In this document: positions 24,811 to 49,860 of the stretch, piece by piece
Layout: each line of letters begins with the position of its first letter
Numbering within the stretch: the first letter of the stretch is position 1
NCBI GenBank assembly: GCA_019426215.1
Contig: CM033404.1
Span: 25,364,843 to 25,428,842 of the forward strand
Direction of reading: 5' to 3'
DNA length: 64,000 nt
From: Buddleja alternifolia
Lineage: Eukaryota > Streptophyta > Magnoliopsida > Lamiales > Scrophulariaceae
The notes under the pieces: generated by a model
Database searches by the model: none
What the model was told of the DNA's origin: nothing
What the model saw: only the letters and a program-made list of their open reading frames with translations
Position numbers and translations under genes: made by a program

Positions 24811-25115
24811 AATTAGGATTCTTCAATTGATTCCAAATTCTTTACAATTGATTGATATTTCCCACAGAAGACTTGCGACATTGTTGTCCTATGTTGCGGA
24901 AGACTGCAATTTGACGATTCGAATTCGATTTTTTAGTTTTTGGAGGTGCAATTGGCAGGGTTTTTGAATTAGGGTTCTTCAATTGATTCCAAAGTCTCTA
25001 CAATTGATTGATATTTCCCATAGAAGACTAGCAACATTGTTGTCCTATTTTGTGGAAGACTTCAATTTGACGATTCCAACTCGATTTTTGTAGTTTTTGG
25101 AGGTTCAATCGGTAT
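24811..25115 (+). repeat. Tandem duplication, about 156-bp unit, two copies
   Basis: AATTAGGATTCTTCAATTG at 24811 recurs as AATTAGGGTTCTTCAATTG at 24967. The two units share 'ttacaattgattgatatttccca', 'gaagact' and 'tttttggagg' at the same spacing, with scattered substitutions. It lies 5' of the transposase pseudogene, so it may be part of the transposon's terminal or 5' region. Confidence 0.8.
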
Positions 25116-25398: not shown

Positions 25399-27819
25399 AT
25401 GTCAGATAATCTGTTGTTCTATCGATACGATGGTAAGTGGCAGATGAAAGATAGAGACGTTGGTGGAGCATATGAATGGATTTCAAATAATAATTTTGCA
25501 TTGATTAACACAATAATTGAGGAGAGGACCATGATCTTAACACAATAACAATTTCCAATTTTCATGATTGTATATTTCAAAGGGCTTCCTTTTAAAAGGG
25601 AGGAGTATGAAATTAAAGTGAGTTATATCCCTTTGTCCTATAAATGTTTAACCCCTATATAAATAGTCGACGATTTTGATTTAAGGTGTTACCTTATGGA
25701 CCAATGTCGGCTATCTAAATGTAGAAGCATTCTCCACGTTGCGCTTATTAAAAAGACGGTTCCTGTTGGAAATAACGTTTTTTGCATTGATGATAAACAT
25801 TATTTTGTTGAATATGGTGATGATGGCTTCCCATATATGGACCATTCGGAATCCATTAATAAGGATTCAGATACTTATGTTGATGTCAATTTGGATGATG
25901 ACTATACATCTGCCCCTGGTCGGCTGGATGGTGTTTTAGAAAAGCCGACGTCCCCGCCCATATCGATAGATTCTGCCCCAACTCCTGTGTAACAAGCAGC
26001 TCCATCTTCTAAAAGATGTGACTCAACTCTAATTCTTCCATCTCTTAATCTTGAACCTACTCCTGTTGAGATTAGTGAAACCTTCAGTTTTGATGATGGT
26101 ATAGATTTTCCGATTAGACATGAATTCAGAAGCAAAGCTGAGGTGTTCGATTTGGTTGTGGCTGCTTCGGACAGTTAAGATAACAAAGGTCGCATATTGT
26201 TTTAAGTGTAGAGTCGAGGATTGTATCTGGAGTTTGTGTGCGGCAAAGACCAGAGGGTTAGATGTTTTCACCCTGCGCTCTCATAATAGAATCCACACAT
26301 GCTCACCTTCAGTGGATAATAAAGAGAAAAGAGTAGCGCAAGGATGGTTTGTAAGATGTTATTGGAGAATTATCCATCTCAATATGATACACCGCCGCCA
26401 AAGATATTAGTTGACCTTATGTTACATGATGGCGTTGATGTTTCTTACCATAAAGCTTTACGGGGTAAAGCATTAGCTTTAAGTACTCTCATGGGTGATC
26501 CGGGTTAGAGTTATGCTAAAATTTTGAGTTTTTTGCACGTGTTGAAGGAGATGAATCCTGGTACAGTTACTCACTGTGTTACAAATGCGGATAGCAAGTT
26601 TGTGTCTTTATTTTTTGCATTAGGAGCATGCATTGAGGGTTTCGAGTTCTTGAGGAAGGTTATTGTTATTGACGGCACACACTTAAAGACCAAATATAAG
26701 GGTGTGTTATTAGTTTGCACTGCACAAGATGACAACAAACATCAATATCCCCTTGCGTTTGGTGTAGTGAAAAATGAAAACGATTCGACTTGGAAATGGT
26801 TCTTGGAGAAGCTTATCGAGGTCATACCAGATTCTGAAGATCTGGTCATCATTTTAGACAGAAACGTAAGCATCTTAAAATTAGTTGAGACAGTTTTATC
26901 CAAGGGCTTCACATGTATATTGTTCTTATCATATCTCTCAAATATTAGGACTCGCGTTAATACAAGCAGGGGCAGTAAAAAAAGAAATGAACATTGGGAC
27001 AGTGTGATGTCAAAGTTCATGGCTTGCGCTGAAGCATATACTGTTCAAGAGTTCAATAAATATTTTGATGGCCTAACGAAAAGGTAACCTCCTACATGTG
27101 TCAAGTTTGAGTATATGCGAGAATTACTCCTTATAAATGAGTGTTGGGCCAGGTGCTTCTTTAAACATTCACGATATAATATTTTGACTTCCAACAGAGT
27201 TGAGTCCATTAATGCTGTATTGGTTAAAGCTAGAACTCTTCCAGTGGTAATTATGTTGGATGAGATTGTCAAGTTAATATCTAGGTGGTTCAATAACCAC
27301 CGCAACAAAGCATTAGAGGGTGGATCGTCACAAGTTCTTACTCCAGAAGTTGAAACAACATTGCATGCAAGGAAACACGATGCCAGTTTCTTTAGAGTCG
27401 ATGAAATAAATAAGATGACACGTGAATATGTTGTCAGACGCATGGGGACTTTGAATTCTGATCAATTCTATGTTGACCTCCGGAATAAAACATGTAGTTG
27501 CCGAGTTTTCGACATTGACCAGATCCCTTGTGCGCACGCGATTGCAGCATTTTCAAAATTTCCTGCTGACGGCAAAAAATTGGATTCTCTATGTTCGGAA
27601 TTCTACACGAAATTTTCGTGGGCAATGGCGTATGACAGAACCACATACCCTGTTTCTAGTATATCCAATTGGAACATTCCTGCTGAAATACAGGCCATTC
27701 GGGTGGTACATCTTGACTTTTTGAAAAGGCGTGGAAGAGTTCAAACAGTTAGAATGGAGTTTGGTGGACAGAAGGTTCGCAAAAAATCAAAGAGACAAAA
27801 AGATTCGAGAAGTTTCTAA
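25399..27819 (+). pseudogene. Mutator-like (MURA) transposase, broken
   Basis: Encodes the transposase that cuts and inserts Mutator-like elements. The N-terminal part (25399-25548, 25696-25992) is acidic. A Cys/His domain (FKCRVEDCIWSL..HTC, about 26200-26302) is followed by the MULE catalytic domain (26524-27087 and onward) with 'VIDGTHLK', 'IILDRNV' and 'NRVESINA' carrying the expected acidic residues. A SWIM zinc finger CSCRVFDIDQIPCAHA is near 27493-27540, and a basic tail ends at 27819. Inactivating changes include stops at 25546-25548, about 25990, about 26505 and 27085-27087 and frameshifts near 26165 and 26350. Homology to one long protein is otherwise continuous, so decay is moderate. 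Confidence 0.85.
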
Positions 27820-27934
27820 ATCTAATCAAACCCCATTGAACCATGGGGTTGCACAATTTTTTCATGTGTCATTAATTGTGGACTTGTAGTAATTTTATTG
27901 ATGGATTGATGTACAATTGCTATTGGGATTCCAG

Positions 27935-28353
27935 TTGCCTTGTATACCGCTTAACCAGATATTTATAATACCGGTATATGTATGTGTTTTTCAATTGTTT
28001 TTATTGCCTCAAACTATAATCTAATATATAAAACATGTCATTTTATTAGTTTCGCAATGGTTTTGTAGTATTCTATGTCACCTAATTAAATGTCAGTTGT
28101 TTATGTATCGATGTGCAGTTTTGTTTCGAGTATGCCTTGTTTACCGCTTAAACGGATGTTTATCATACCGATATAAGCTTGTGTTTTTTCAATCATAAAT
28201 CGTTCTGATTGGATCCAATTTGAGTTTATAATATATAAAACATGTCATTTTTATTAGTTTCAATGATTTTCGCTTTTCGAGTTTGGGTTTGGGGTTTAGG
28301 GTTTCGGTTTAGGATTTAGGGTTTATATACCGGATAAATATCCTTCCGTTAAG
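27935..28353 (+). repeat. ACCGG-type dispersed repeat array behind the transposase
   Basis: Two to three units of a repeat containing 'ttgtataccgcttaacc', 'agatatttat-ataccggtat', 'atataaaacatgtcattt' and 'tgtttatg-atcgat'. Clear unit starts are near 27945 and 28140. The same repeat lies at 42890-43310 (plus) and, inverted, at 45440-46060 and 49310-49560. It ends in a degenerate telomere-like stretch (28271-28326). Confidence 0.75.
28271..28326 (+). repeat. Degenerate telomere-like TTTAGGG stretch
   Basis: Within about 50 bases there are several GTTTAGGGT or close variants (GGGTTTGGGGTTTAGGGTTT, then 'cggtttaggatttaggg'). Too short and degenerate to be a functional telomere array. Confidence 0.7.
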
Positions 28354-28360
28354 TTGGCCA

Positions 28361-30174
28361 TGTTAGGATTATACCCTCAGATGCCGTAGAGGATAGAATG
28401 ATAGGGCATCTATCTTGTAGTTAACTTATTTCGATATTATTAATAAAGGCATTATTTAGTTTTTACTTAAATCTTATCTGCATCTATAAGAAGTGTAAAA
28501 TGTGTTGTCCATGTTTTCAATGCGATCCCTCTACTTTTTATGGGATAGGAAGAGTGGCACTAGAGAGATCGATCTTGATTACTAAAAACAAGTTCGCAAG
28601 TAAAATGAAGTCTTTAATAGACAAATAAAGACTTAGAACACTTGTACAATCTTATCTCTGACATGGGAGTGCCAGTTTAGTACCATGGGATGGTAAGAGC
28701 TTGAGATTGTAGGCACATCAGTGGAATTGATATGCTCGAATACGACTCGCATTGGTTCTGTCACATGGGTTTTCACTCTGTGACTGTCAATGACAGAACT
28801 GATTATGCGTAACAGGTATAAGTGAACCTTTGACCTGAAACATCATGCTGAAGATGCATTTGTGACGTCAAGTATTTCATTAAAGTAGTTAGACCCAATT
28901 CACCAGTTGGTGGGGTCGACCTCGAAATGCGGCTTGATGGGTAAATGGTAGTCTTAACTGATATCTAAATGGGATTTGTTCTCTCATAAGTGAGTGAGAA
29001 AGTACCTTATGTGATTATAGATAAATAGAGATCAAAGTCTTTGGCCAAAACAAAAAGAGACGATTGTGCTAGGCACTAAATCGATCTCAATGATCTCGTA
29101 TTATTATAATTAATACATATGGTCAAGTCCAATGAGTTTGACATAGCCATGACTCTTACTTGACTGAGGTACACGAACAAAGGGTTAATACTTATACGGT
29201 ATTTACAATTGGAAGGTTGTGGAAATGATCCAATTATTTGATTTTGTTTGGGCTACGAAGTGAGCCACGTGACTGGCTAGGTGTTACCCACTTCCTTTGG
29301 TTTTCTCTCATTGCCAAACGAAACGAACCTAAAGAGTCGCGCTAAAGGATTGATAAAGAAAAATGAAAAAGAAGTTTCTATTTTTCTTCTAGGAGTTTTT
29401 AATTTATTGGATAAATTAAATAATTAATTATTCATTAGATGAAATAATTAATTGTAAGGGTAAGATTAATTATTAATTATTTTCCTATGGAAATATATTA
29501 AAGAATTAATTTATCTAATTAATTTGATTATTTAATTAATTTATTTATTTATTGGATATAATAATATATTAATTGAATAAGAAATTAATCAAAACAAAAC
29601 AATTCCCAGACTTAAAGAAGGCGTCCAAATGGACGCCTACTAGGTCTTATTGGGCGTCCAAATGGACGCTTAGGTGATGCCCAATTTACCAGGGCTCTTT
29701 TGTTTTGTCTTGTTCAATAAATCATGAGGTATATAAGGACTCTTTGACCTAGAACAAGATAATGACTTTCATAACTCTCCTAGAAAGAAAGAAGAAAAAA
29801 TCCTCCTCCCTCTCTCTAATACTAGCCGTCGCCCCCTTAGAGAAATTAGTGGGAATTTTTCATCAATTAATCTGTGCGTGATAATTTATAGACAGTGTAA
29901 GTTCGTTGTTCGGATCAAATTCAAGAAATTCAAAAAATTCAAGAATTGAAGATGATACGTGGATTGAGGAAATCAAGAATTCATCAATTCAAGTTTCAAG
30001 TGAAGAATAAGATTTTTCAACCACTTCGCTTCAACGGGTAAGTATTTATTCGTTAAGCGGAGCTGCGGAATTGTCAATTTGAATATGCGATCATTGAAAT
30101 CAAAGTTTGGGTTTGTAAATTAAATTTTTGAAATCCTTTCATTGCGTTTATATTATTTTTCACGAAACCCAACA
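28361..30174 (+). mobile_element. Solo LTR, copia-type family, plus strand
   Basis: Starts TGTTAGGATTATACCCTC and ends ACCCAACA, 1814 bp. Same superfamily as LTR A, with shared blocks such as 'gacctgaaacatcatg', 'GACTGTCAATGA', 'TTTGGCCAAA' and 'cctaaagagtcgcgct'. No primer site or internal domain follows, so it is solo. The 5-bp flanks GGCCA and GGCTC match at only 3 of 5, so the target duplication is not clean. It lies in the Mutator-like region. Confidence 0.75.
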
Positions 30175-30328
30175 GGCTCAAATTGTGATCTAAACAATAA
30201 ACGTATCATTTCAATTAAGTTAAATGGTTTACTATTATTTTATTTCATCTAATTATAGGTCGAATTATGATGGATCGATATGTGTTGATCCTAAGTAAGT
30301 GAAGGTGTGCAATATTGTAACTAACTAT
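30175..30328 (+). other. Residue of the Mutator-like region between two solo LTRs
   Basis: The part 30185-30240 ('gatctaaacaataaacgtatcatttc') resembles 32163-32215 ('gatctaaaccataaacatgtcctttc'), part of the ACCGG-type repeat family, so both LTRs landed in the same repeated DNA. Confidence 0.55.
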
Positions 30329-31930
30329 TGTCGGGAATTATACGAATAAAACGCAGCGGAAAGTAAATTTAATTCCCAAAGCCCGAATCATCTCTAATCC
30401 TCGTGTTTAATTGTGTATAGAAAAATTACCGTTCTCGCGTATGTTGATTTCTGAACGTGATCCTTTTCTCTAACGCCGAATTTGCCAACGTCTCTAATTC
30501 GTCACGTCGGAATCAAAAGTGAAAAACTCCTCCTTTCTTCCTTGTCAAAGACGACTAGAGAGAGAGAGAGAGGTGGGAGACGTTTTCTTGGAGAGAAAGT
30601 TATGTAAATTGCCTTGTGTTATTTTTCACCTTGTGATATATTTATATCATTATGAAACAATAACACTAGCATGTAAGAGCCCTATTTGGGCGTCTATTTG
30701 GCCGCCCCTTAGTGGGCTCGGAAGCCTTCGGGCTTTCGTCTTGCTTGCTAATTAATTAATCGGATAATTTATTTATCCAATTAATAAATTGATAATCCAA
30801 TTAATTCAATTCCTAATTAATTTATAATTCAATTTCTCCAAGAAATTAATTAACTCATTAGTTTAATTAATTAATTAAATTATCCAATAATTAATTAATT
30901 AATTACGGCATCCAATGCCGTGAATTTCTCTCAAGTCTTTTTCTCATGTTTTTCCTTTTGCACTTCTTTTAAGCGCGACTCTTTAGGTTTGTCTCAAAAG
31001 GCAATTGGGATGAATCCAAAAGGGTGTGAGTGACACCTAGCCAGTCTCGTGGCTCACACCGTAACCCAATTGAGAACGAATGAATATGATCATTCCAAAC
31101 CTTTACGCCGTGAATACCGTACATGTATAAACCTTTTATTCTTATATCCCAGTCAAGTAAGAGTCATGGTTTAAAGTCAAACTCATATAACTTGACCATA
31201 TGCCTAAGCTCATAATAAGTCGAGGTATTTAAATGCTTTGGCCAAAGGTTTTCATCCTCACTTATTCATGATGCATATGATATTTTACTCATTCACTTAT
31301 GAGAGAATAAATTCCATATTGCAAATCAGTTAACAATGCTACTTGCCCATCAAGTCGCACTTCGAGGTCGATTCCACCAACAGGTGATTTGAATCTAACT
31401 ACTCTAATGACAGACTTGATGTCACAAGTACATCTTCAACTCGATTTCTCAGGTAAGAGGTTCACACGTACCTATCACTACTTATCAGTTTCATCATTGA
31501 CTGTCAATGAGTGAATACCCATGTGATGAACTGATGCGAGCTGTGTTCGAACATATCAGTCCAACTGACACGTCTATGATATAAGTTCCCACTACCATTT
31601 CCATAGTGTACGAATGACACTTTCTCTGTCAAAACTTACATCATACAAGTCTTTATTCACTATTGATGTCCAATCAATATTTCTTAGACTTGCGAACCCT
31701 TTTAGATGTCAAGGGTCAAACCATTCTAGTGCCTTTCCTCCTATCCCATAGGAGGTAGAAGGTTCGCTTTGTCATCAAGGACTTTACGTTGTTTATTCAC
31801 ACCTTATAAATGCCTATAAGAAAACAACAATCAACTGCCTTATATTAATAGAAAAATCATAGTTTAGTTACAATGTTTATGCCTTATAAATTTATCCTCT
31901 TTATGGCATTCGAGGGCATATACTCTAACA
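30329..31930 (-). mobile_element. Solo LTR, copia-type family, minus strand, TSD ACTAT
   Basis: On the minus strand it starts TGTTAGAGTATATGCCCTC and ends in CCCGACA; 1602 bp. It is flanked by a perfect 5-bp duplication ACTAT (30324-30328 and 31931-31935), and no internal domain is present. Its sequence near 30530-30760 matches the small solo LTR 61773-62332 inverted (CT-rich run, 'aagcccgaaggctt', 'gttattgtttca'). Confidence 0.9.
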
Positions 31931-31935
31931 ACTAT

Positions 31936-32962
31936 ATCATATCTTCTTCATGTGTCATATAATAATCATATGAATTAATTTGAACTTCTTAATGTTTGCG
32001 TTATAACAAGTCCCAATGTTTATATTTTCAATTACTACTATATGAAAATTCAATACGATTCCATATATTGGTATGAATGATTCGATATGACTACATACCA
32101 TCTATCTAGATGACTACGATACTCCACTTACCCGATAAATATCCATTCGTATACGCATATGTGATCTAAACCATAAACATGTCCTTTCAATTAAGTAAAT
32201 ATTTTAAAATGATTTTTATGTCAACCAATAATATGTTGATTCGTTAAGGATTAATCCCTAAATTTCATTCAAATATGGCCATTATACTGCCTATAGGGGA
32301 TACATATATCCCTCCGGGTATATGACTTTCCGCCCATCTTTTCATTTTCATTTTTTACAAGTATTTAAAATCCCATTACTTATGACTTCCCGCCCATGTT
32401 TTCATTTTTATTTTTTTTAACAATTCAAAAACTATATTCCTGCTTCTTCCTTTTCTCCCATTACTTTTCAGTTTCCCCCTTTCATTTCACAATTATTCAC
32501 CAAATTCAATCAATAGCTTCCCTCCTCCCATTAGTCACCAAATTCAATCAGCAGCTTCTCTTGCCCGAGCACCTTTTCCGCCCTTAGAAGTCTCTTTCAA
32601 CCGCAATTACCCCAAAAGCCGACAAGGTCTGTTTATTCACCAAATTCAATTAGCAGTTCTCCCATTATTCACCAAATTCAATCTGCAGCTTTTGACTTTA
32701 TGTGGAGAAGTTGGTTGTTGTGCGACGACTATCTGTAAAAAACCGGATTGCGAATCGTGCTTTTTCTAAACAAAATTAAAGTCCAAGGTGACTGAATTAT
32801 TGGCCTCTGTCGTGTTCTCAATCACGGCGGTGAGTCTTTTAGGACATTGGTATATGAAAAACAAGCTGATTGCATTTTTTTGCAACATAATATTGCCATG
32901 ACTGCTGTGTATAACCATGTAAAGAACCGTGTCGATGCGCGTCGTAGGTTGATGGTCCCAAG
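31936..32962. other. Non-coding part of the Mutator-like region
   Basis: No intact gene. ACCGG-type repeat remnants lie near 32130-32330. Four near copies of CACCAAATTCAATC occur at 32498, 32536, 32638 and 32670, in a C/T-rich stretch that looks like a 5' leader. Sequence at 32695-32950 may be remnants of coding exons but I cannot assign them. Confidence 0.45.
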
Positions 32963-33797
32963 TGGCATACGAAAGGGTCTAGAAGGGGGGGGGGGGGGTT
33001 GAATAGACCCTTAAGTCTTTTTCAACTTTTGAAATTCGTATCACTTTTGAAGATTTTGAATGCTTAGTTAGCTGAGTGCTAGGTCAGGCGCTTAAGGATT
33101 AGATAACTTAGACTTAGTGATTTCAACAATTATCAAAGTAGCTTAATGTTTTAATTGCTCAATCCGGGTTAGCACAGCGGAAAAGATTTTAAAGCTTAGC
33201 GTTCTCTTTTGCCAATTAGTCGCTTAACCGATTTCATGCCTTTTTCAAAGATATAATATGAAGATGTAAAGTAAAGCAATAAAGCAGTAAATAACACAAG
33301 AAATTGTAAGGTTCACTGGGTGATGTAATCCTAACTACGTCCTTCTTCTTCTTTGCACTTGGAAGAATTTCACTAGATTGATTATCGAAGGATCACACAA
33401 AGGCTTCTACAAAATAGATGAAAGGAAAGATGATCTTGATCTCCTTGATCACATAGACTTCAGCTCCAATGAAGACCTTCTTCAACAAGTTTCTCTCACA
33501 CAGAAATGTTGCTTGTAGAATCAACAACTTTCTCACTCAGATAAAAGAGGTTGAGGGTTTTGTCACGGGTTTGTTTGATTTTAGAAGTTCAAACAACTTG
33601 AGATATCTCAATAGGAGTTTAGAGTTCTTCTTTGAAGAGGTTTGAGATATCTTTGACTATCTTTGGAATGTGTATAAAAAGCTTGAGAGGGGTTTTTGCT
33701 ATGGAGTTTATAAGCTTTTCTCTCAAATAATTTCAGCAAAGTTTAGACCTTTTTCTTGTGAATGTACGTGTGTAATTAGGGTTTGCTGGAGGGTACT

Positions 33798-35281
33798 TGA
33801 TAAGTGCAATATTTATATATTTTATTACCTCTATCTTTAGCATTTTATTGTGATTATATGGCCATTGGAACTGATTTTATCTCATTTTGTGATTTGGGCA
33901 AGAGTTGAAGTGCAAAATATCAATTTCAATCAAAATGACAGATTTGGCGATGTTTCGGAAATATTAATATATCTGGAGATGCAGACATTAGTTTCTATTG
34001 AATTTTATCTAGTTGGAAAGCTAAGACAAAGGCCTATATTTCTTATGAAGAAGTCCAGACCCAGTTCGGAGGTTAAAGGGCTCGAAAGTGTTGAAGAATT
34101 TAATGAAGATTTCTGTTCTGGACTGGACTGGAATGCGCAGCTTTGGTGAAAGATTCATAACTAGAGTTATGTGTCTTGGATTCAGTCAAGACCAGTTGGA
34201 AATGAAAGCTAACACATAAAGCCACAAATGTCTAGAAGGAGTTAAAGTCAGATTCGATGAATTAGAGGTGACAAATCAGAATGTAAAGGGAAGAATATAT
34301 TCTCCATGCTTTGATGTTAAAGAGAAGAATATATTCTCCATGCTTTGATGTTAAAGGGAAGAATATATTCTCCATGTCTTGATAAAGGAAGAGAGAATAT
34401 ATTCTCTCTATGATTATGTCATCTTTTCATTGCCTATATATATGTCTTGCAAGAGTTGAAGAAGAACAACAAAAACAAGAAGAAAACAAAGAGAAGAGAG
34501 TTAGAAAAAATAGTATTTTCAAGTTTTATGCTTACAATTATGAGTAGCTAAGTTTTTATTTCGATTCAAGGGAGTTCATTTTGATTCACATGTTGTGAGA
34601 CACGGAGCTTCATCTATCTATCTACGGTTTGATTATCTTTTGTTTCTTATTCTTAATGTTCATGCTTGTTTAGATAATAATCTAAGGTGCACATTAGTTG
34701 ATTATCTATTACAATCTATTGCTAACAAATCTTCATAATCCGTAATTGTTATGTTTGATTTGTGCATGTAGCAATTAGGTTTTCATGATTAGGATCCCAA
34801 TTTTCGTTGATAACCTAAGGGAAACATTAGAGTAAATTAAATAGTTGGCGCTTGCTTAAACTATTGTTTATTCTTAGTCGCTTCTAATTCGTTATGCTAT
34901 TATTAACATGATTAGGATTGCTTAATACCGAGTCAGTTGATAATAAGAATTTAACCGGGTGCTGGGCTTTGGTTAATGATATACGGAAGTTAATAGGGAT
35001 ATAAATAGCTGGTTATTTATGTTCTTGGCTAAGTAATCAAAGAATAGATAGTATTTTAGGTGTCTATGATCAATTTGAATTGAAGAACGAACTATCCTTG
35101 AATCGATGCTTTACATTTATTGAACTTCCTATTTAATTCATGTCATTATTAATTCATCAAACAAACCTCCCCATTGAATATTATTTTGATCAACCAATCT
35201 CTAGGGTTCGACCTAGACTTACGAGTACTACAAATTCTTGTGAGAACAGTAATTATATTTTGGTGCATTCGACACGTACCA
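33798..35281 (+). repeat. 5' LTR of the Athila-like element
   Basis: 1484 bp, same length as the 3' LTR. Contains a small internal tandem repeat: 34-bp units starting near 34290, 34324 and 34358, each with AAGAATATATTCTCCATG. A TATA-like CCTATATATATG lies near 34434, followed by the probable start of the RNA. The 99-codon open frame at 33850-34149 has no domain. Confidence 0.95.
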
Positions 35282-35283
35282 AA

Positions 35284-35303
35284 TTTTGGCGCCGTTGCCG
35301 GGG
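35284..35303 (+). other. Primer-binding site of the Athila-like element
   Basis: TTTTGGCGCCGTTGCCGGGG directly follows the 5' LTR. This sequence is typical of Athila/Tat elements and pairs with a tRNA 3' end other than Met (tRNA-Asp is the usual reading). Confidence 0.85.
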
Positions 35304-35392
35304 AGTCAATACCTGAAGAGTCAATCCCTTCTCCAAAGGGAAGCACCGAATCTCTGCACCTGTTTTCAAGTGATTCAGACGAAGAGGAAGTC

Positions 35393-36586
35393 ATGGCAGC
35401 CAACAATAGGACTCTAAAGGAGTTGGCTGCTCCAAATTTTAATCAATAACCTTTATGCATTGAATACGCTACTTTAGATGTTGCTTTTGAATTGAAATCT
35501 GGATTGATTCACTTATTACCTAAATTTCGTGGTCTTGCAGGAGAGGATCCAAATAAACATCTGAAGGAGTTCCATGTTGTTTGTTCAAGCATGAGACCAA
35601 CTGGAGTGTCCGAGGAGCAGATTAAATTGAGAGCTTTTCCATTCTCCTTAGCTGATGATGCAAAGGATTGGCTCTATTATTTACCGTCGGGGACGATAAC
35701 AACATGGAATGAAGTGAAGAGGCTGTTTTTGGAAAAGTACTTCCCAGCTTCAAGGGCTGCCAACATAAGAAAAGAAATTTTTGGCATAAGGCAGTACAAT
35801 GAAGAGTCATTATACGAATACTGGGAGCGTTTTAAGAAGTTGTGTGCAAGCTGCCCCCACCACCAAATAAGTGAGCAATTGTTAATTCAATATTTTTATG
35901 AAGGCTTACTGTATATGAACAGGAGCATGATTGATGCAGCGAGTGGAGGAGCGTTAGTAGATAAAACCCCCACAGCTGCCAGAAATTTGATTTCCAATAT
36001 GGCGGCAAATTCACAGCAATTTGGCATAAGGTTGGACCACACACCTAAAGCAGTTAATGAGGTAAGTACATCTAACCTTGAGCATCAAATTTCTGAGTTA
36101 ACGTCATTAGTTCGTCAGATGGCGGTAGGAAATATGCAAGTAGCGAAGGTATGTGGTATTTGTTCAGTTACAGGACACCCCACTGATGCGTGTCCTACAT
36201 TGCAAGAAGAAACGAACCAGCAAGCCAATGCCATTGGAGGATTCCCAGGTCAGCAACAAAGAAAGTACGATCCTTATTCCAATTCATACAATCCAGGCTG
36301 GCGAGATCACCCCAATCTCAGTCATGGAAATCAAGTTGGACAAAATCGTTATCAAAATTCTTTCCAGCCTCGACAGCAACATCAAACGAATCAATCTTTG
36401 AATTCAGGTATGGCTTTAGATGAAATTGTTAAAGCTCTCGCTAACAATACCCAACAATTTCAACAGGAAACAAGAAACAGCATCCAAAATTTAGAGAAAC
36501 AGATAAGTCAGTTAGCAACTTCGATGAGCAAGATGGAAGCTCAAGGTTCGGGCAAAATTACCCTCCCAAACAATCATAAATCCTAG
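35393..36586 (+). pseudogene. gag: Athila-like gag, interrupted by one stop codon
   Basis: Capsid and nucleocapsid protein. The frame from ATG at 35393 reaches a TAA at 35447-35449. Directly after it the same frame continues through 'GLAGEDPNKHLKEFHVVCS', a conserved gag segment, to 36586. The retrotransposon gag domain covers roughly 35530-35930, a zinc knuckle CGICSVTGHPTDAC (CX2CX4HX4C) lies near 36151-36192, and the tail is Gln/Asn-rich. The run of A near 36555 appears to carry one extra base, since pol homology continues upstream of 36609 in another frame to this point. The gag ORF therefore ends early at 36584-36586. Confidence 0.85.
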
Positions 36587-36608
36587 AGAGAATGCCAGTG
36601 TAGTAACT

Positions 36609-39080: not shown

Positions 39081-40294
39081 AAGGCTGCAAAGTCGAGCCA
39101 ACGACTTTAAAAAAAGGCGCTGCTTGGGAGGCAACCCAAGAGTGGCTGAACGACCACCATCAGATTTGCTTTCTTTTTCACTATCTCTTTTAATTGCGTT
39201 TGTTCATTTTTTTTATTTATTTATTTTTATTCTGTGTTGCATTGAGGACAATGCAGATTTTAAGTGTGGGGGAAATGGTTAGTTATTTGTTTTATGAGTT
39301 AAAAAAAAATAATTCTTTATTGTGCAGCCAAGTAAGGTAGTGAAAAATTATTTTCCTTCATCAGTGGTTGATTGAAAAATAAACTAGATTCAATAGAGAA
39401 GTTAAGTAGTGTTTAAATTGTTATGATTGTTGAAGTACAGGCTTTTAGAGAAATTCGTGTGAATTCCTAATTTAGCATAACTTTGTATGTGACTTTTGAC
39501 TTGCTGAAATCCCTTCAAATTCCTCAAGGTTAATCTGGTTGATAGTGACTTAAAATAATAATGGATGAAATTCCTCGGTGTAAAGCTTGAGGCGTAAATT
39601 GCATAATGTTGAAGATATAGTATAGCGCCTGGGATTATCTACACTGAAGGGATTAAGCCTGAGGAGTTTTCAAGCTTGGTAACCTAAGACTATCTAGTCT
39701 GGGATCTATCGGCCCAAACCTGCTACTGTGTTGGAAATCTAATAGGGCTATTCAAAGTATGTCCAGAATGAAATGATCCGCTTGTTGAGTAACCGGGTGC
39801 ATTCATGAGTAATGTTTGTATTCGCGTCAAAAGACAAGTGTGTGCTTAATAATAAAATGTTGCTCGTTTTGATTTATTATTTATGATAGAGGAAATATAA
39901 AGGGATGATGTTAAGTTAGATGTTGCATTAATAGTATTGCGGTTACGAAATTAAGTGAATTCTTGAGAAGTTTGTGTGAATGCAAGAGTAATGGTGGAGA
40001 CATGATAGACCTTTCTATCGAATTTTGTTACGAATTGATGTTTGGAAAGAAAATTTCATGAATTTGCTTGTTTGTACATTGAGAGATTGATTTTGTGGGT
40101 ATATCTTCTGCAAACCCTCACGAGACTAAACTCGTCCACTAGGGGTAACCTAGGGGTTTAAAGGCTTGTTGCATATGCTAAATGCAACCGTGTTACCTAC
40201 GAAAATGGTTGGCTTTAGTTTTAGTTTTTTTTTTCTTTTCTAGTTTCTCTTTATCTTTGCCCGTGGACGTGCAAGAGCTAAGTGTGGGGGAATT
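39081..40294 (+). mobile_element. 3' untranslated region of the Athila-like element with two polypurine tracts
   Basis: No coding domain. A GCTTGGGAGGCAACCCAAG stem-like motif follows pol (39122-39140). An internal polypurine tract AGTGTGGGGGAAA occurs near 39263, and the terminal one AGTGTGGGGGAA is at 40281-40292, just before the 3' LTR. Duplicate tracts of this kind are common in Athila/Tat elements. Confidence 0.8.
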
Positions 40295-41778
40295 TGATAA
40301 GTGCAATATTTACATATTTTATTACCTCTATCTTTAGCATTTTATTGTGATTATATGGCCATTGGAACTGATTTTATCTCATTTTGTGATTTGGGCAAGA
40401 GTTGAAGTGCAAAATATCAATTTCAATCAAAATGACAGATTTGGCGATGTTTCGAAAATATTAATATATCTGGAGATGCAGACATTAGTTTCTATTGAAT
40501 TTTATCTAGTTGGAAAGCTAAGACAAAGGCCTATATTTCTTATGAAGAAGTCCAGACCCAGTTCGGAGGTTAAAGGGCTCGAAAGTGTTGAAGAATTTAA
40601 TGAAGATTTCTGTTCTGGACTGGACTGGAATGCGCAGCTTTGGTGAAAAATTCATAACTAGAGTTATGTGTCTTGGATTCAGTCAAGGCCAGTTGGAAAT
40701 GAAAGCTAACACATAAAGCCACAAATGTCTAGAAGGAGTCAAAGTCAGATTCGATGAATTAGAGGTGACAAATCAGAATGTAAAGGGAAGAATATATTCT
40801 CCATGCTTTGATGTTAAAGAGAAGAATATATTCTCCATGCTTTGATGTTAAAGGGAAGAATATATTCTCCATGTCTTGATAAAGGAAGAGAGAATATATT
40901 CTCTCTATGATTATGTCATCTTTTCATTGCCTATATATATGTCTTGCAAGAGTTGAAGAAGAACAACAAAAACAAGAAGAAAACAAAGAGAAGAGAGTTA
41001 GAAAAAATAGTATTTTCAAGTTTTATGCTTACAATTATGAGTAGCTAAGTTTTTATTTCGATTCAAGGGAGTTCATTTTGATTCACATGTTGTGAGACAC
41101 GGAGCTTCATCTATCTATCTACGGTTTGATTATCTTTTGTTTCTTATTCTTAATGTTCATGCTTGTTTAGATAATAATCTAAGGTGCACATTAGTTGATT
41201 ATCTATTACAATCTATTGCTAACAAATCTTCATAATCCGTAATTGTTATGTTTGATTTGTGCATGTAGCAATTAGGTTTTCATGATTAGGATCCCAATTT
41301 TCGTTGATAACCTAAGGGAAACATTAGAGTAAATTAAATAGTTGGCGCTTGCTTAAACTATTGTTTATTCTTAGTCGCTTCTAATTCGTTATGCTATTAT
41401 TAACATGATTAGGATTGCTTAATACCGAGTCAGTTGATAATAAGAATTTAACCGGGTGCTGGGCTTTGGTTAATGATATACGGAAGTTAATAGGGATATA
41501 AATAGCTGGTTATTTATGTTCTTGGCTAAGTAATCAAAGAATAGATAGTATTTTAGGTGTCTATGATCAACTTGAATTGAAGAACGAACTATCCTTGAAT
41601 CGATGCTTTACATTTATTGAACTTCCTATTTAATTCCTGTCATTATTAATTCATCAAACAAACCTCCCCACTGAATATTATTTTGATCAACCAATATCTA
41701 GGGTTCGACCTGGACTTACGAGTACTACAAATTCTTGTGAGAACAGTAATTATATTTTGGTGCATTCGACACGTACCA
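40295..41778 (+). repeat. 3' LTR of the Athila-like element
   Basis: 1484 bp, differing from the 5' LTR at 10 positions by eye, mostly transitions, with no length change. Confidence 0.95.
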
Positions 41779-42251
41779 GTACTATTTATAGAGGTTTCTT
41801 TGGATTTGTCTGTTGGACACATGTAGGCGCGTGTCTCTCACGCAGCGCGTTAAACAATCCATTTTCTGACATTCTTGAAATTCTGCTGGTCCGATTGGAC
41901 AGAAGCATGTTTTGAACTCTGATTTCTTACAGTCTAGTCAAAAGATGGCTTGTCCACAAGTCATAATAGATTATCACATTTAATGCACTTATCAGGCATT
42001 TAGTGTATTTGAACTTATTTCCCGTTGGAAATGAATGTCCGTTGATGATTGCATTTAAGTCCTCCATGACTTGAGAATTTATTTCAGATGAATCTGATAC
42101 TTGATCGCTTGAGTATTTTGAGCGCTTGATTCACAACCCTGAAACAGTCCTTTAGCATTTGACAGACGCTAAGAACAAATCTTCATCTTCACTTGACTTC
42201 AGACGCTGATCTTCAACTTCATCTTAGATAGACTCACCTAGAATTCTAACA

Positions 42252-42489
42252 GCGACTCTGTATCAAATACTTAGTCTAAAATCTATAAAGATAAAAATTA
42301 CAAGCCTAACAAACTTTCAAACGCTTATACAATATTTCTATGAAAGCATAAACTTACATTCTTTTTGGGGTCTTACATAAAGTCATATTCTTGTCATCAT
42401 CGAAACATCTAACATGAAATTTCCTAACATAGGTATGTGTTGAGTATTGTATCCAATTTTCATGTAATAAACTGAGGGTAATGTGCAGG
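42252..42489. other. Short non-coding link of the Mutator-like region
   Basis: AT-rich, intron-like; nothing recognised. Confidence 0.35.
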
Positions 42490-42861
42490 GATTTACCTCC
42501 AGGAAAACTGATTGGTAACTGTCCGGTGTTTACCAGAATTGAGACCCCTTCCAAAAACTTAGATGCGCACAAGGAGACAATTGTCGCAACCGATGATTCT
42601 TGCTTCTACTTCGACTTCAGATAGAATGTAAAAGAGTTAATAAAAAAGATGTTGGATCATGTGCATTCTTCCAATGATACTATAAAGCATATTGAGGAAC
42701 ACAACAATATTCACCTCTTGCATATTATCAGAAATGAGATATGGCATGAAGCTAGTGAAGCATTGAAGCGAGGAGTTGGCGATGATTTTGATGAATTTTT
42801 CGAATTCAGCTATCCTGAGAGCGAGGATGAGGCATTTGGTGTGGAGTGTGACTGCATTTAA
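42490..42861 (+). pseudogene. Unrecognised small gene fragment
   Basis: After a splice-acceptor-like GTGCAG (42483-42488) a frame reads 'DLPPGKLIGNCPVFTRIET' to a TAG at about 42619-42621. It then continues in the same frame from ATG 42649 through an acidic C-terminus (…FSYPESEDEAFG…) to 42861. I do not recognise the family. Its place next to the repeat array and F-box gene suggests it is part of the Mutator-like cargo. One in-frame stop suggests a dead gene, unless an intron removes it. Confidence 0.4.
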
Positions 42862-42889
42862 GGAAGGTATATATAGTTTAAATTCTTAA

Positions 42890-43310
42890 TTGGGTGTAAC
42901 CGGATATTTATCATATATAAAACATGTTATTTATGTCAATTTCAAGGGTTTTGCAATATTTATGTATCAATTAAATGACAATTGTTTATGGATCGATATG
43001 AAATTGTGTTTTGAGTATACCTATTATACTGCTTAACCGGATACTTATCATAGCGGATTAATCTTGTGTTTTCAAACATAAATAGTTCTAATTGGCTCAA
43101 ATTTGAGTTTTCTAATTTATATAAAACATATTATCTATGTTAATTTCAAGGGTTTTTTTAGTATTCTATGGCACCTAATTAAATGTGAATTGGTGATGGA
43201 TGGATATCAAATTGTGTTTTGAATATGCCTTGTATACCGCTTAACTGGATATTTATCATACCAGTATAACCGGATATTTATCATACTGGTATCAGATTGT
43301 GATTTTTCGA
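42890..43310 (+). repeat. ACCGG-type repeat array, plus orientation, left of the F-box gene
   Basis: Units near 42895, 43027 and 43228, each with AACCGGATATTTATCATA or a close variant, 'ataaaacatgttattta', 'atttcaagggtttt' and 'atggatcgatatgaaattgtg'. The last unit has the core doubled (43238-43295). The array on the other side of the F-box gene is inverted. Confidence 0.8.
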
Positions 43311-43438
43311 TCCAAAATTAAATTAATTGCATCAAACTGTTATCTACTATATAAAAACATGTACAAGTACAAAAGAGTACACATTCAGTACATGACCTTA
43401 GACTTATGAAGATACAAATTACCTAGGGTAAGCCCCTT

Positions 43439-44994
43439 TTATGAAACGAAACAACACATTTTTGAAGCGGTGCCTTCATACGCCCTAATTGATGGCCTCT
43501 TATGAACGTCAATTGGATCATCAAAAAAGCTCATAGTGCAGTAAATATTTAGTGTACCCAACTCAGTTGCGTGCGACAACACGTACCGAATGTAGTTTAG
43601 CTTGCAATCAGAACCCGAGAAGTTGAAGATAGTGACCTCATTCAATAACTCCAATCCCATCGCTTGCAACTTCCAGTCCTTTACGTAGTTGAATACACTA
43701 GTGCAATTGTTTTCCCATGGTGCATCCTACACAAGTTAAGTCAATTACAATTTTATTTTAGAAACCCAAACAAAGAACGTGTTAAATAAACCATGTAATA
43801 ATCGACAAATCATAAACTTAAAATTTTACCTCCAAATCGACTTTAAGCTCATTCAAGATTGTACATCTACTGATGAGCACCAATGTGACAGCAAGATTGT
43901 CTAGCTGCTTTGAACACCTAATCTCTAAGCGGTACATATTAATAAAAAAGTGCTTCGCCATAATGCAACGTAGAGACTCCACACGCACCAACATCTACCA
44001 AAGTTAAAAAAAAAAAATCAAAACAAATTCATAAAAGCATTTTCACTTATTCAAACAATGATAGATGTACCTTAACAAAATCAATCGGGACACGTGCTTG
44101 TTCGTTGTACAGTAATTCTTTCGTCATTTTGACAACCTCTTGAAGTAGTCGGTTTCTCGAGCAAAATGATCCGATGTAGTATCCATGACAGTGTACTATC
44201 CACTGTAAAGAACGAGGTAATGTCCCCACTACTTGTAAATGCCCCAGACCCTGTTGGTCTTGTTTCAATAACATAACTAGGACATCTACATCGGGAAAGT
44301 CTACTTTTATATTCACGTTTGCTTGGCCCCGATTGAATACCATTTTGAATATTTTTACACATGGCAAATATACCTCAAATTCTGTAAGTCCTCTAAAATC
44401 ATAGTTCAATAACTGCAAATCATTTAACTCGGGACACCATTTTCCAAGTCGGGAAGAAAATGTGTTATCATTCAACACAACGTGCTTCACTTTGAGTCTT
44501 TTCAAATTTGGTAAACTATATCTATCTTCCCACCTAACATTGTAGTTTAGTAGATATAATTTTAACTCAACAAGAGTTTTTGACAAAAACAGGCCGTTAG
44601 GGAGTGACATGGACAACCGGCAGACTAATTTCAGCTTTTGCACAGAACTAGCAACTCCAAACGACATCCATTCTTGCCTAATCTGTTGCAATGCCTCCGT
44701 CCCCATGGGTAATTCAAAGATCAAGGTTTCAACAACACTTTCATTATGTTGAAGTATAGTGCGATTAACAAAATTAATAAAATCTAAACCATGATAATCC
44801 CTTTGTTCGAAACGGTTAATATCGAACAAAAGAGTAGGGATGGAATACCAACAATGTTGAAAATACTTTGATACAAGACCCAATCGGGCTGCCTCCACAA
44901 TGCATGAATCCCTTGATAACTTTCCCATAACATGAAATATTAAATCCTCACAAAGGAAACTAAGTCCATTATCAGAAATTGTACCTCGTTGCAT
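43439..44994 (-). CDS. F-box/FBD protein, three exons, apparently intact
   Basis: Likely substrate adaptor of an SCF ubiquitin ligase. Exons by clean GT-AG sites, all phase 0: 44994-44071 (308 codons), 43994-43830 (55 codons), 43726-43439 (95 codons plus stop), giving 458 aa. The F-box is at about residues 12-50 (DLIFHVMGKLSRDSC...GLVSKYFQHCW), followed by irregular LRR-like strands (residues ~120-230). A C-terminal FBD-like domain in exon 3 contains 'VTIFNFSGSDCKLNYIRYVL'. No stop or frameshift is present. It lies between two oppositely oriented ACCGG-type repeat arrays and beside Ulp1-type genes, so it looks like transposon cargo and not an ordinary host locus. Expression is unknown. Confidence 0.8.
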
Positions 44995-45439
44995 GGTTGT
45001 TTATATGAAATATCCCCTATTTATACTGTGTTTCTCCCCTGCTCGTGCAAGATGATCTCGCTGAAGTGATATTTTCTGTCTCAATACTCTCCCTCCTTGG
45101 AACTCCTCTGAAAATCCTTTGAAAATTCTTTGTAGGGTTTGGTGGGGGAAGAGAATGTTTGATTTTTCAGTCAGTTTTGGCTTTTGGTTATAGTAAAGAG
45201 GAAGACAAATGAGAAGGATTTTCCAGTCCACAGTTTTGAGGGATTTTCCAAGGATTTTCAAATGTAAGTTGAGTATGTGAAAAGACTTTTACTTTTTTAC
45301 ATGTTAGAGAGTTAGTGTGTGGACGTGGTTAATTGGCGGTTACCTTAGTTGTATCTCATTCCCCATTAATTTGTAATTTGTAACTTGTAGTAGTTAGCAG
45401 CAGGTGTGGGTAGTTACTAGTGGGAAGTTTAAGGGACAC
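44995..45439. other. Upstream region of the F-box gene
   Basis: Probable promoter and leader of the minus-strand F-box gene; 'tatttatactg' near 45018 could be read as a TATA-like element on the minus strand (AGTATAAATA). The frame 45001-45261 shows no domain. Confidence 0.4.
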
Positions 45440-46060
45440 ATACCGGTTATATAGGTAACTGGTATAGGATGCAAAAAAATACCATTTTCCTTATCATTAC
45501 GTGAACATTAATAATTAGATGGGCTAATTATTTTTTAAAGCTTATACCGGTATGATAAATATCCGGTTAAGCATTATAATAGGCATACTCAAAAAACCAT
45601 TGAAACTAACATAAATAACATGTTTTATATATTATATTACAGTTTGAGGCAATTAGAACCATTTTTAGTGTTTGAAAAACCAAAACTTATACCGGTATGA
45701 TAAATATCCGGTTAAACGGTATAATAGGCATACTCAAAACACAATTTCATATCTATCCATAAACAATTGACATTTAATTGGTTGAAATAGAATACTAAAA
45801 AACTATTGAAACTAACATAAATAACATGTTTTATATATTATATTACAGTTTGAGGCAATTAGGCTTATACCGGTATGATAAATATCTGGTTAAACGGTAT
45901 AATAGGCATACTCAAAACACATTTCATGTCGATCCATTAACAATTGACGTTTAACCGGGTGACATAGAATACTAAAAAACCAATTTTATATATTAGAATA
46001 CAGTTGGAGGGAAATAACAATTGACATTTAATTAGGTTAAATAGAATACTACAACAATTA
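45440..46060 (-). repeat. ACCGG-type repeat array, minus orientation
   Basis: Three clear units with ACCGGTATGATAAATATC near 45543, 45683 and 45866, plus a weaker one near 45442. Spacing is 140-183 bp. Units share 'ggcatactcaaaacaca', 'caattgacatttaatt' and 'aaataacatgttttatatatta'. Inverted relative to 42890-43310; it ends at the Ulp1 stop codon side. Confidence 0.85.
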
Positions 46061-46093
46061 ACTATTTACAAGTTAACTATTTAACAATGTTCA

Positions 46094-46825
46094 TCAATCA
46101 ACTCTTAACCTCAAAATATCTCTAGCTACTCGTCTCCTGAAATACAGCATGTTGTGCTGCCCAAAACAAAGTCCAATATCGGCACGACTACTAGAAAAGT
46201 TAGCGTACTTCATCATAAACATTCCACAGTCGAACACATTATGCTGTTGGGGATGGTCTGTGGTGCGCTCATAATGCCAGTGACTCAAATCAATTGATTG
46301 TCCGTTATTGTGCCTCGCCTCATCAATATAATACCGAGCTAGAAAATCCAAAACTTTATGATCATATCCACCATATGAATCAAGATACTGCAACTTTTGG
46401 TCTTTTTTGTTGATAATAGCTAAACACCAATGTTGATCTTCTTTTCGGTGAATAGGCACAAACAGTTTGTCACACTCAACAAGGTGATATCCAATAGAGG
46501 TCACACCATTCCATTCCTTGAATGATTTGAAATCATACTGACCATCACGAACCAAACTCCCGTAAAAGAAAGAGCTAAAATAATGGCATCTCAAATATTT
46601 GGTTGGCTCCCTAATCTCTCTTTCTTTCAACAAATTAAAATACAAATCAACCAACTCATCATTAATCCAACCTTTTGACCGCAAACACTGAAACTTTTCG
46701 CCGTTTATGCAAATACCAGACAGATAGTGACTCACCAACGTTTTTGTAGTATTGCTTTTTGCAAGGCCAGCGACAATGTCTTTGTCTTCTGCCCGGGTAA
46801 GAGGGGAAAAATATTCCGTAGCCAT
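46094..46825 (-). CDS. Ulp1-type cysteine protease (C48), intact ORF
   Basis: A single-exon open frame of 243 codons. The catalytic set of SUMO-type (C48) proteases is all present: His132 in QHWCLAII, Asp149 in LQYLDSYGG, Gln193/194 and Cys200 in NVFDCGMF. An in-frame TAA lies a few codons upstream of the ATG, so this start is natural unless an exon is spliced in. In plants such Ulp1 domains are often carried by Mutator-like elements (the KAONASHI type) together with DUF1985 exons. Here those exons lie directly upstream (47043-49860) but are broken. It may be the last exon of that gene, or a stand-alone protease. SUMO cleavage is a family inference only. Confidence 0.8.
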   Translation of the reverse strand: MATEYFSPLTRAEDKDIVAGLAKSNTTKTLVSHYLSGICINGEKFQCLRSKGWINDELVDLYFNLLKEREIREPTKYLRCHYFSSFFYGSLVRDGQYDFKSFKEWNGVTSIGYHLVECDKLFVPIHRKEDQHWCLAIINKKDQKLQYLDSYGGYDHKVLDFLARYYIDEARHNNGQSIDLSHWHYERTTDHPQQHNVFDCGMFMMKYANFSSSRADIGLCFGQHNMLYFRRRVARDILRLRVD

Positions 46826-47042
46826 GGGATTTTATACAGATTGTGCAACAGTTTTTTTGCGGCGGCTTCCGCTGGGATACAAAGCAAATAACTTCATCTT
46901 GATAAGAGCACGACATTAAATAAAAAATTAAATACATTATCATCAAACTTAAACAAGTACTAAATTTCATAACATTGTTTACAAATATACATCACATGCA
47001 GACATCAAGATTTTCATCAAACAAAAAAGACATTATGCCATA

Positions 47043-49860
47043 TTAAGTCTTACACACTTTCTTCTTCTTCTTTCCATCAGGATCGGTAAATGGAGATCTT
47101 TGATACTTGGATAACATAGGCATCCTCTTCAAATTTTGCTCCACAACTGCATTCTCTACCTTTGTATCATCACCTACATCCAATCCACCATCACCTACAT
47201 TTACCTTCAAATCATCACCTGCAACAGAATCTTCATGAGGAAGAATAGCTAAATCATTCTTTTCAACAGCTTGATCCTCACCTCCAACAGCTTGATCCTC
47301 ACCACCACTTTTAGCCCTTCTACTCAATAACGATAACTCAAAACTCTGTGTAGATAACTCAGATTTGATAGAAGATAACTCAGATTTCACAGAACCTAAC
47401 TCACAAGTTAATGAGATTTAGCAGTTGACAACTCAGATTTCACAACAGACAACTCAAATTTCACAGAACCTAACTCACAAGTTAACTGGGATTTAGCAGT
47501 TGACAACTCAGATTTTACAGCAGACAACTCAGATTTCAAGGCAACATTGTTTTCTACTAACATATCAACCTTTTCCATCAACTCACCAAACATTTTAACA
47601 ACTGGATCATTGGTGTTAATGGGATTTGATGAAACAACTGGTTCAGAGGACTGTGGAGGTCTGGATGTACCACATTGAAAACTTCTAGTTTCAGGTCTTC
47701 TACCATCATCAATGTTGGCTGAAAGTTTAGTCACTGGAACAACGACACGTCGAGATTCCACATCTATATGGAAAATATCATCAAATGGGATTCTACCTCC
47801 TTTCTCCAGTATTTCAGTCCACAATTTGGTGGTGGTGTCAGTGATGTTGTTGGTTACATCATACAGAGCAAAACTTTGAATGTGGTCTGTTGCTTGTTCC
47901 TCCTGCGTGGGCTGAAGTATGCTTTTAATATTTTAGCAAACAAACTAAAAAAATAAATAAAATCATTAAAATAAAATACTACAAAACAACTGAAATTAAT
48001 ATAAATAACATTGAAATAAAATCTTTTACTTCTTAGTTAGTTTTACATAAAAGATTATTGACTATGGATAGTCAATGTGCTTTGTGGAAATGAAAAAAAA
48101 ACTATGAATCATTTGAATTTTGAATGTACATGGAGTCAAGAGTTATTGAGCCTGCTGTTAAAAAAAAAAAACACTAACCTTGTTGTTCCCAACTATCATA
48201 AGAACCTGAGATAAAGTGGGGTATTGTCTTTTCTGAACAAGTTTGGTAGTCCACTTGCACATTCTCTGCAACTTTCGGGTGATATTCTCCCTCAAACACC
48301 CAATAATTGGTGACAGTGCGGGAATACACCAAAAAGGAAAAAACTGGCATAGGAACAAAAAAGATATTATCAAATATTTACAGATAAAAGTAAGTCAGCA
48401 ATTAACAATGAAAGACAAAAACTAAATTTACCATAAGTGGGAGAATGAAACAATGGAAGTTGCATTGAAGATTTGCCGAAACCAATTTCTTCTTCAGGTC
48501 TAAAGTTTTCAAGTGATCTATCATAACAGAATAAGAAAACTTACGCCATGGATAGGTTTTCGCAAACTCAAGATCATCAACGATTGCAAGAAGACTTTCA
48601 TCTATTGCCAAATCATCACTTGCAGGGATAAACAAAGCAGAAACCAACAAGTATAATAGAGCAAGCTTCAACTTGTCTGATGGAAGGATCTCAATAACTT
48701 GGTCACTAGAACTAATTTGACGCTTCTTTTTCTTAGGCACTGGTTGAGTACGGATCACACACCGCATAAGTTGTTCCTTAAGAACTTTTACTGAGGCTTT
48801 AGAGCTAAGGTATTTATGACTAAAACTATCAACATCGTCCACACTTTTTTTTCAGTTGGATACGGGGAGCAATTTAATCCATTCATAACTGCATGCTCCA
48901 TCAAAGAGTAACGAATAGGTATGCCATTTAGAACAAACCAGATTTTGAATTTGTCGGGAGACTCCACTATTCGGGTTAGAAGCATCTAGAGAGGAGTTAA
49001 AACCATTTCCAATGAAGAATCCATGTCGAATAATGATCCGAACTGAGAATTCTTAAACCACATGATGCCATCTGGATGGTCACTCAAACAATCTTCAATA
49101 AATTTGATATTTGTGGCCAATTTGTAGTGGCATGATAGTTTACACTTCTTATTAAAGTCTTTCGGGGTCAGTGTAAAAGTGGGCCGAGAGATATCGTCTG
49201 CATCATTAACCTAAAAACAAAATTAAATTAGATTACTTATAAGTAGTAGAACATAAAATTATACAGTTTTAAGCAATTGGAACAATTTTGGATTGAAAAA
49301 CCACAATATGAAACTGGTATGATAAATATCCGGTTAAGCAGTGTAAGTACAATTGCATATCGATCCATCATCAATTCACATATACTTAGTTGACATAGAA
49401 TACTGCAAAACCATTGAAACCAATATAATTCCATGTTTTATATATTAGAAACTGAGATTTCAGCATATTATAACATTTTGGATTGAAAAACCACAATATG
49501 ATACCGGTATGATAAATATCCGGTTAAGCAGTGTATAAGGCATATACTTAAAACACAATGACATATCAATCCACAAGTCCACAACTGATCATGTCTTACA
49601 TTAAAAACTGATCATGTCTTAGACTAAAAGCTGATCATGTCATGTTTTACACCAAAAACCTTAACAAAGCTCACAACCCATAAAACTTTAACACATTAAA
49701 GAATTACATCACACCAAAACTGAAACAAATACATCTATAAATTTGGAACAAGATATATTAGTTTACTTACCGGGGGTGTGAAGGAAGTTGGAGGGTCAGC
49801 CATTGCTGCAACAACTGCATCTAGACGGCGGTGTTTGGTGGGAGAAGACGAATCCGCCAT
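47043..49860 (-). pseudogene. DUF1985/coiled-coil upstream gene of the Ulp1 unit, broken
   Basis: Exon 1 (49860-49771, 30 codons, MADSSSPTKHRRLDA, donor GTAAGT) is followed by a DUF1985-like exon (about 49210-48430). The latter includes 'WFVLNGIPIRYSLMEHAVMNGLNC'-like sequence near 48870-48960. It carries a TAG at 48988-48986 and a frameshift in an A8 run (complement of 48845-48852). A further exon lies at about 48345-48180. The next (about 47924-47043) is acidic and Lys/Ser-rich, with repeats of 'SVKSELS-KSELSTAKS' forming a coiled coil. It has a 1-base frameshift near 47409, and ends at a TAA at 47045-47043. Ulp1 follows. The damage shows this half is a pseudogene. Confidence 0.65.
49310..49565 (-). 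repeat. ACCGG-type repeat units inside an intron of the DUF1985 gene
   Basis: Two units with TATGATAAATATCCGG near 49319 and 49508 (189 bp apart), each followed by 'ttaagcagtgta' and 'cacaa-tgacatatc'-like sequence. Same orientation as 45440-46060. Confidence 0.75.

Follow-up and report, generated by a model that had tools for sequence, protein, structure and literature searches.

A probable VANDAL-type Mutator-like element with an ESD4-type Ulp1 frame and an F-box-type gene as cargo in Buddleja alternifolia

Among Mutator-like elements (MULEs), Pack-MULEs have Mutator-like ends around host-derived gene sequence. In the Arabidopsis VANDAL elements VANDAL21 (Hiun) and VANDAL6, a Mutator-type transposase is accompanied by VANC, a DUF1985 gene whose variable part contains tandem repeats, and the elements hold noncoding tandem repeats as well, including in the VANC intron (PMC5735166). 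As described in that source, VANC has two domains, DUF1985 and DUF287, and the targets of VANC21 in VANDAL21 are tandem repeats that change rapidly and lie in the introns of VANC and VANB and upstream of VANA, at which VANC causes methylation loss (PMC5735166, PMC10398659). In other Brassicaceae, some of the elements placed in the VANDAL group have terminal inverted repeats (TIRs; PMC6446971). Here we describe a decayed Mutator-like insertion, probably of VANDAL type, from a 64,000-nucleotide stretch of contig CM033404.1 of Buddleja alternifolia (hereafter the window; positions count from its first letter), which encloses an ESD4-type Ulp1 open reading frame (ORF) and an F-box-type gene in addition to the remains of its transposase and of a VANC-like gene.

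Other described relatives carry a Ulp1-type (ULP) domain. Such domains have been reported in MULEs of Arabidopsis, melon, rice and grapevine, where either orientation occurs and TIR as well as non-TIR elements are represented; in the grapevine and melon elements the domain lies downstream of the transposase in either orientation, and some of these have TIRs (PMC2528002). Kaonashi elements (KI-MULE or KIU), whose ULP domain runs opposite to mudrA, are called non-TIR in the same source, and by one description their ULPs stand further from ULPs than DEN1 does (PMC6117577). In one review, KIU are regarded as VANC genes that include a Ulp1 domain and act on the kind of element that carries them (PMC13317346). 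F-box proteins can target silencing components, as FBW2 targets AGO1 (PMC9035678). Among the matches listed from the open-licence literature, titles and abstract openings named no MULE with F-box and Ulp1 genes together, and the word 'F-box' occurs nowhere in the main text of PMC2528002.

Comparison of the regions at 22–27 kb and 48–53 kb (~25 million position pairs) returned one inverted-end pair with flanking direct 9-mers, delimiting positions 24503–50406. Its TIRs match at 20 of 21 bases, and the 9-bp target-site duplication (TSD) is identical at eight positions. With at most one mismatch allowed in 20 for the TIR and one in 9 for the TSD, no such pair arose in any of 1000 dinucleotide shuffles of both regions. 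A strict all-against-all scan of the window in 5-kb blocks passed this pair and one other, which lay within a single block, while a looser setting applied to ten control region pairs yielded a single AT-rich match, weaker and with 3+2 mismatches. The ends are absent elsewhere in the window, occurring twice in all when up to five mismatches in 21 are tolerated, and the terminal repeats are short, since self-BLAST revealed no longer inverted match between them. Members of the Mutator superfamily are recognised by terminal ends and a TSD of 8–11 bp, usually 9, both of which are present here, and 24503–50406 is best read as one Mutator-like insertion. The original prediction had placed a Mutator-like region at 25399–49860; that region is real, but the element extends further on both sides, and the transposase, F-box, Ulp1 and DUF1985 genes all lie between its single pair of ends. 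The expectation that about 13 kb would remain once later insertions were subtracted also held: removal of insertions A, B and C from 25,904 bp leaves ~13.0 kb. The window as a whole has a G+C content of 35%, and its genes are plant-like.

Table 1. Features of the insertion and its immediate flanks, in window coordinates; strands of repeats are relative to the 204-bp unit described in the text.
Feature	Position	Strand	Remarks
Left TSD, GTCCCGACT	24494..24502		8/9 identical to right copy
Left TIR, GGGAATTTGGCAAATATAGTC	24503..24523	+	20/21 identical to right end
Tandem duplication, ~146 bp	24811..25112	+	upstream of transposase gene; 90.4% identity
MURA/VANA-type transposase pseudogene	25399..27819	+	Plant_all_beta, MULE, SWIM
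Repeat array	27896..28268	-	two units
Insertion A, solo-LTR-like (TG...CA)	28361..30174		flanks without clear target duplication
Repeat fragment	30233..30283	-	between insertions A and B
Insertion B, solo-LTR-like	30329..31930		target duplication ACTAT on both sides
Repeat fragment	32214..32324	-	
Gene X, left fragment	32800..32975	+	approximate bounds; no Pfam match
Insertion C	~32976..42427		bounds by eye; no clear target duplication; contains D
LTR retrotransposon D	33798..41778	+	nested in C; LTRs 99.2% identical; target duplication GTACT
Gene X, right fragment	42487..42861	+	one internal stop; no Pfam match above cut-off
Repeat array	42885..43362	-	left of F-box-type gene
F-box/LRR/FBD-type gene	43439..44994	-	exons 44994-44071, 43994-43830, 43726-43439; 458 codons, open
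Repeat array	45538..46054	+	between F-box-type and Ulp1 genes; inverted relative to 42885-43362
ESD4-type Ulp1 (peptidase C48) ORF	46094..46825	-	uninterrupted; catalytic residues aligned
VANC-like DUF1985 gene	47043..49860	-	broken
Intron 1 of VANC-like gene	49211..49770	-	GT-AG
Repeat array	49258..49578	+	within intron 1 of VANC-like gene
Right TIR, reverse complement of GGGAATTTGGCAAATAGAGTC	50386..50406	-	ends at 50406
Right TSD, GTCCCCACT	50407..50415		

The two genes that place the element among its relatives are both decayed, as the original prediction had it. The transposase pseudogene carries MULE (PF10551; 57.6 bits, cut-off 27.6), SWIM (38.7 bits) and, at its N-terminus, Plant_all_beta (33.7 bits) domains; counted by eye, no fewer than five in-frame stops and two frame changes interrupt it. 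The DUF1985 gene (PF09331, cut-off 35.1) scores 67.3 bits on a read-through with X as compared to 27.5 bits on a single ORF and is interrupted, again judged by eye, by one or more stops and two or more frame changes. Its protein is 38% identical over 380 aligned positions to the Ficus protein P0030, which carries both DUF1985 (89.1 bits) and DUF287 (28.5 bits), the domain pair known from VANC; the alignment runs through the DUF287 region of P0030. Tandem repeats occupy its coding part at 47329–47560, and VANC proteins are likewise described as having such repeats in their variable part (PMC5735166). Judged by sequence, the gene is similar to VANC, which serves Arabidopsis VANDAL elements as an anti-silencing protein.

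When the window was scanned with a profile of the 204-bp unit at 45.6 kb, 15 matches reached E ≤ 0.1, all within 27896–49578. Every one of them falls inside the element's ends and outside modelled exons, with two located in intron 1 of the VANC-like gene. All sites of the single repeat family previously thought to link the region were thus recovered, together with the pieces at 30233–30283 and 32214–32324. Repeats left of the F-box-type gene lie in one orientation and those to its right in the other. Because the published VANC21 targets sit in similar noncoding tandem repeats, we read the 204-bp units as candidate VANC-like target arrays; the VANC-like identity of the DUF1985 gene, which goes beyond the original prediction, gives the repeat family a plausible role. 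By eye only, the unit resembles YAGTATTAY at 8 of 9 positions, which does not establish a match to recorded VANC motifs. The core ACCGGTATGATAAATATCCGG highlighted earlier is real but is not the most conserved part of the unit, as 34 of 179 21-column windows are more conserved. A palindromic core acting as the single conserved binding site was considered and rejected, other blocks of the unit being equally or better conserved.

The Ulp1 ORF, by contrast with the broken genes, is intact, as had been claimed (Peptidase_C48, 118.4 bits). It is 56% identical to an ESD4 of Henckelia over 245 positions, reaching the common C-terminus. In a protein search, E ≤ 0.001 was reached by 355 of 867 candidates; the best 120 of these all belong to C48, at 49–56% identity, many of them named ESD4 or Ulp1 and the rest hypothetical or unnamed. 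We regard the designation 'ESD4-type' as firm. His, Asp, Gln and Cys residues align with those of SENP2 (entry 1tgz) that we take to be catalytic, and the ORF retains the predicted catalytic residues of a SUMO (small ubiquitin-like modifier) protease. A word-limited search starting from the whole read-through gave 37 matches among 7991 scored candidates; 35 of the 37 had only C48, two had DUF1985 and DUF287, and none combined C48 and DUF1985 in one protein. A tree of 57 rows, comprising the window's domain and 56 relatives chosen for spread from 124 usable domains, placed it beside Henckelia (support 95/92), within Lamiales (98/80). It sits on a very long branch, the bootstrap was unsettled, and placement outside Lamiales was not rejected by an approximately unbiased test (p 0.39); capture of the domain within Lamiales is not firm. 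The structure model of the ORF had a mean predicted local distance difference test score (pLDDT) of 34.6.

Between the DUF1985 stop and the Ulp1 ATG (46826–47042) lies a basic stretch, GSRRKKTVAQSV followed by a stop, in frame with Ulp1. Given this stretch, the DUF1985 and Ulp1 genes may once have formed one spliced gene.

The F-box-type gene was assembled from three exons chosen by hand, with GT-AG introns. Exon 1 contains LRR_At5g56370 at 30.0 bits, above the cut-off of 27, and F-box, LRR and FBD matches follow one another along the gene in the expected order, the first and last of them weak. In the joined 458-aa protein, FBD alone is found (13 bits) and the LRR match of exon 1 is lost. From a collection of 5.8 billion proteins, one of 3974 candidates passed as a relative, a Bauhinia protein (E = 2.4e-6) that carries both PF00646 (F-box) and PF08387 (FBD). 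A model of exon 1, built from two sequences, has three N-terminal helices followed by alternating strands and helices, at very low confidence. The gene appears to be an open but very divergent frame.

Set beside the described systems, the locus shares with VANDAL21 and VANDAL6 the transposase, the DUF1985 gene with its tandem repeats and the noncoding arrays, including one in the VANC-like intron. VANDAL ends are characterised by absent or degenerate TIRs, and the locus has short but clear 21-bp TIRs, as do some elements grouped with VANDAL elsewhere in the Brassicaceae; it departs from VANDAL gene content by its separate ESD4-type Ulp1 ORF and F-box/LRR/FBD-type gene as cargo. With the MULEs of grapevine and melon, some of them TIR elements, it shares a ULP gene downstream of the transposase. 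Like Pack-MULEs, it has Mutator-like ends around host-derived gene sequence; unlike them, it keeps transposase and VANC-like remains and has an F-box-type gene that is complete as an open frame. Among the relatives retrieved for its proteins, the nearest come from Henckelia, Ficus and Bauhinia.

Taken together, we consider that the locus is probably one decayed ~13-kb VANDAL-type (VANA/VANC) Mutator-like element with Ulp1 and F-box cargo, later interrupted by other insertions. The VANC-like protein would have bound motifs in the arrays and stripped silencing marks from its own element, whereupon the transposase could be made. The element would have acquired the ESD4 catalytic domain and the F-box gene as cargo between its arrays, and all would have moved together, inserting 90 bp ahead of an RRM-type gene's start codon before LTR (long terminal repeat) and other insertions interrupted it. 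The cargo proteins might have had SUMO or ubiquitin targets. Most likely the F-box gene came into the element's spacer, between the two array orientations, before the element moved here, because no ends of its own were found, the outer registers of its flanking arrays differ and the family's ends occur nowhere else in the window. A bolder version would make the element a three-part counter-silencing kit of VANC-like array finder, ESD4-type desumoylase and SKP1–CUL1–F-box (SCF) adaptor, borne between a single pair of ends and kept open as the remainder decayed; SUMO would be stripped from silencing proteins at the arrays, and the SCF adaptor would mark a silencing component for degradation. This version we consider unlikely.

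Several points weigh against the single-element reading. It rests on a single copy in the 64-kb window. DUF287 was not called by Pfam in the window's VANC-like protein, a VANB equivalent was not recognised in the element, and the repeat core is not unusually conserved. The gene announced as an intact F-box/FBD gene does have its open 458-codon frame, but its F-box (14.6 bits, cut-off 20.5) and FBD (15.8 bits, cut-off 22) domains stay below the Pfam cut-offs; the F-box match (E = 0.031) is outranked by a chance match to another family, and the structure model of exon 1 is poor (mean pLDDT 46.4). It is also possible that the F-box block inserted late and that its ends have decayed.

A second explanation overlaps with the first and differs from it only by denying the cargo a role: an ordinary ULP-bearing MULE, Kaonashi-like in a wide sense, would have picked up an F-box gene by chance, the pair being without function. 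We regard this as possible, if rather unlikely. As in Kaonashi elements (PMC2528002), the ULP gene is reverse to the transposase (Ulp1 on the minus strand, MURA on the plus strand). However, the Kaonashi label given in the original prediction finds no support when the locus is set against published descriptions, as opposed to sequences, of these elements: short TIRs are present, the Ulp1 domain is ESD4-type (56% to an ESD4), unlike the Kaonashi ULPs of those descriptions, a stop and 217 bp lie between its ORF and the DUF1985 frame, and there is F-box cargo, which the main text on the grapevine and melon elements does not mention either. The F-box gene, moreover, is a complete three-exon open frame rather than a fragment, and the ~2.1 kb of cargo frames are free of lesions as compared to at least ten, by eye, in the ~4.3 kb of transposase and VANC-like genes (rough Poisson estimate 0.008, on hand-chosen gene models). 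Since those gene models were chosen by hand, the open cargo frames only hint at later arrival or constraint.

Less probable still are two or three neighbouring or nested Mutator-like elements, with an F-box element (42.9–46.05 kb), whose long terminal repeats would be the inverted arrays, lodged later inside a VANC/Ulp1 element. The arrays at 42885–43362 and 45538–46054 do point towards one another, with up to 87% similarity across 116 nt, and MULEs are described as typically having long terminal repeats, most often of 100–500 bp (PMC6305189). Yet the unit registers at the outer edges of the two arrays differ, unlike those of true terminal repeats, and across nine boundary combinations no inverted pair (at most two mismatches in 14) with a 9-bp duplication (at most one mismatch) surrounds the F-box block; what passed were two pairs at 8 bp and two at 10 bp, all inside the arrays. 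A nested F-box element was rejected on this ground, and within the window separate ends for the F-box part, which the original prediction had named as the finding that would split the region, were not encountered. The family's ends occur only twice in the window, and the same repeats are also present after MURA and in the VANC-like intron, and therefore look like the element's own spacer. Finally, a coincidental terminal match in a mosaic of older insertions that share no boundary could draw on TIRs that are short, differ at one base in 21 and then diverge, and on the mismatch in the TSD, but is very improbable in view of the shuffles, control regions and strict scan.

Returning to the single VANDAL-type element, its later history is written in insertions A to D, of which D looks Gypsy-type by eye. 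Insertions A and B and two further segments, 5371–6253 and 7972–8821, form one LTR-like family of four members at 65–71% identity, in both orientations; two pieces of B (from 30388–30810) match 61818–62245 near the window's right end, inverted, at ~70–73%. Insertion C split gene X, a plus-strand gene with an acidic stretch near its C-terminus. A Pfam scan of the gene X fragments gave chance-level matches only and no family; that it is a VANB-like gene would be a guess.

The RRM-type gene, identified by an RRM match, starts on the plus strand with an ATG at 50497. The element's right end (within 50376–50500) contains TATAAATAG, ~110–120 bp upstream of that ATG, and the transposon end may thus provide the gene's core promoter. 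Elsewhere in the window, a direct repeat pair (884–1119 and 13769–14005; 238 bp, 90% identical) and a tandem duplication (19164–19434; ~130 bp, 96% identical) were observed.

For this plant genome, the locus would represent a VANC-type transposon with noncoding candidate target arrays. Its ULP domain looks to have been captured independently of Kaonashi, and an SCF-type gene comes on top of it as further cargo. Should both genes recur in other copies, these would offer a direct system for asking whether SUMO and ubiquitin functions are enlisted by transposons to counter silencing by the host.

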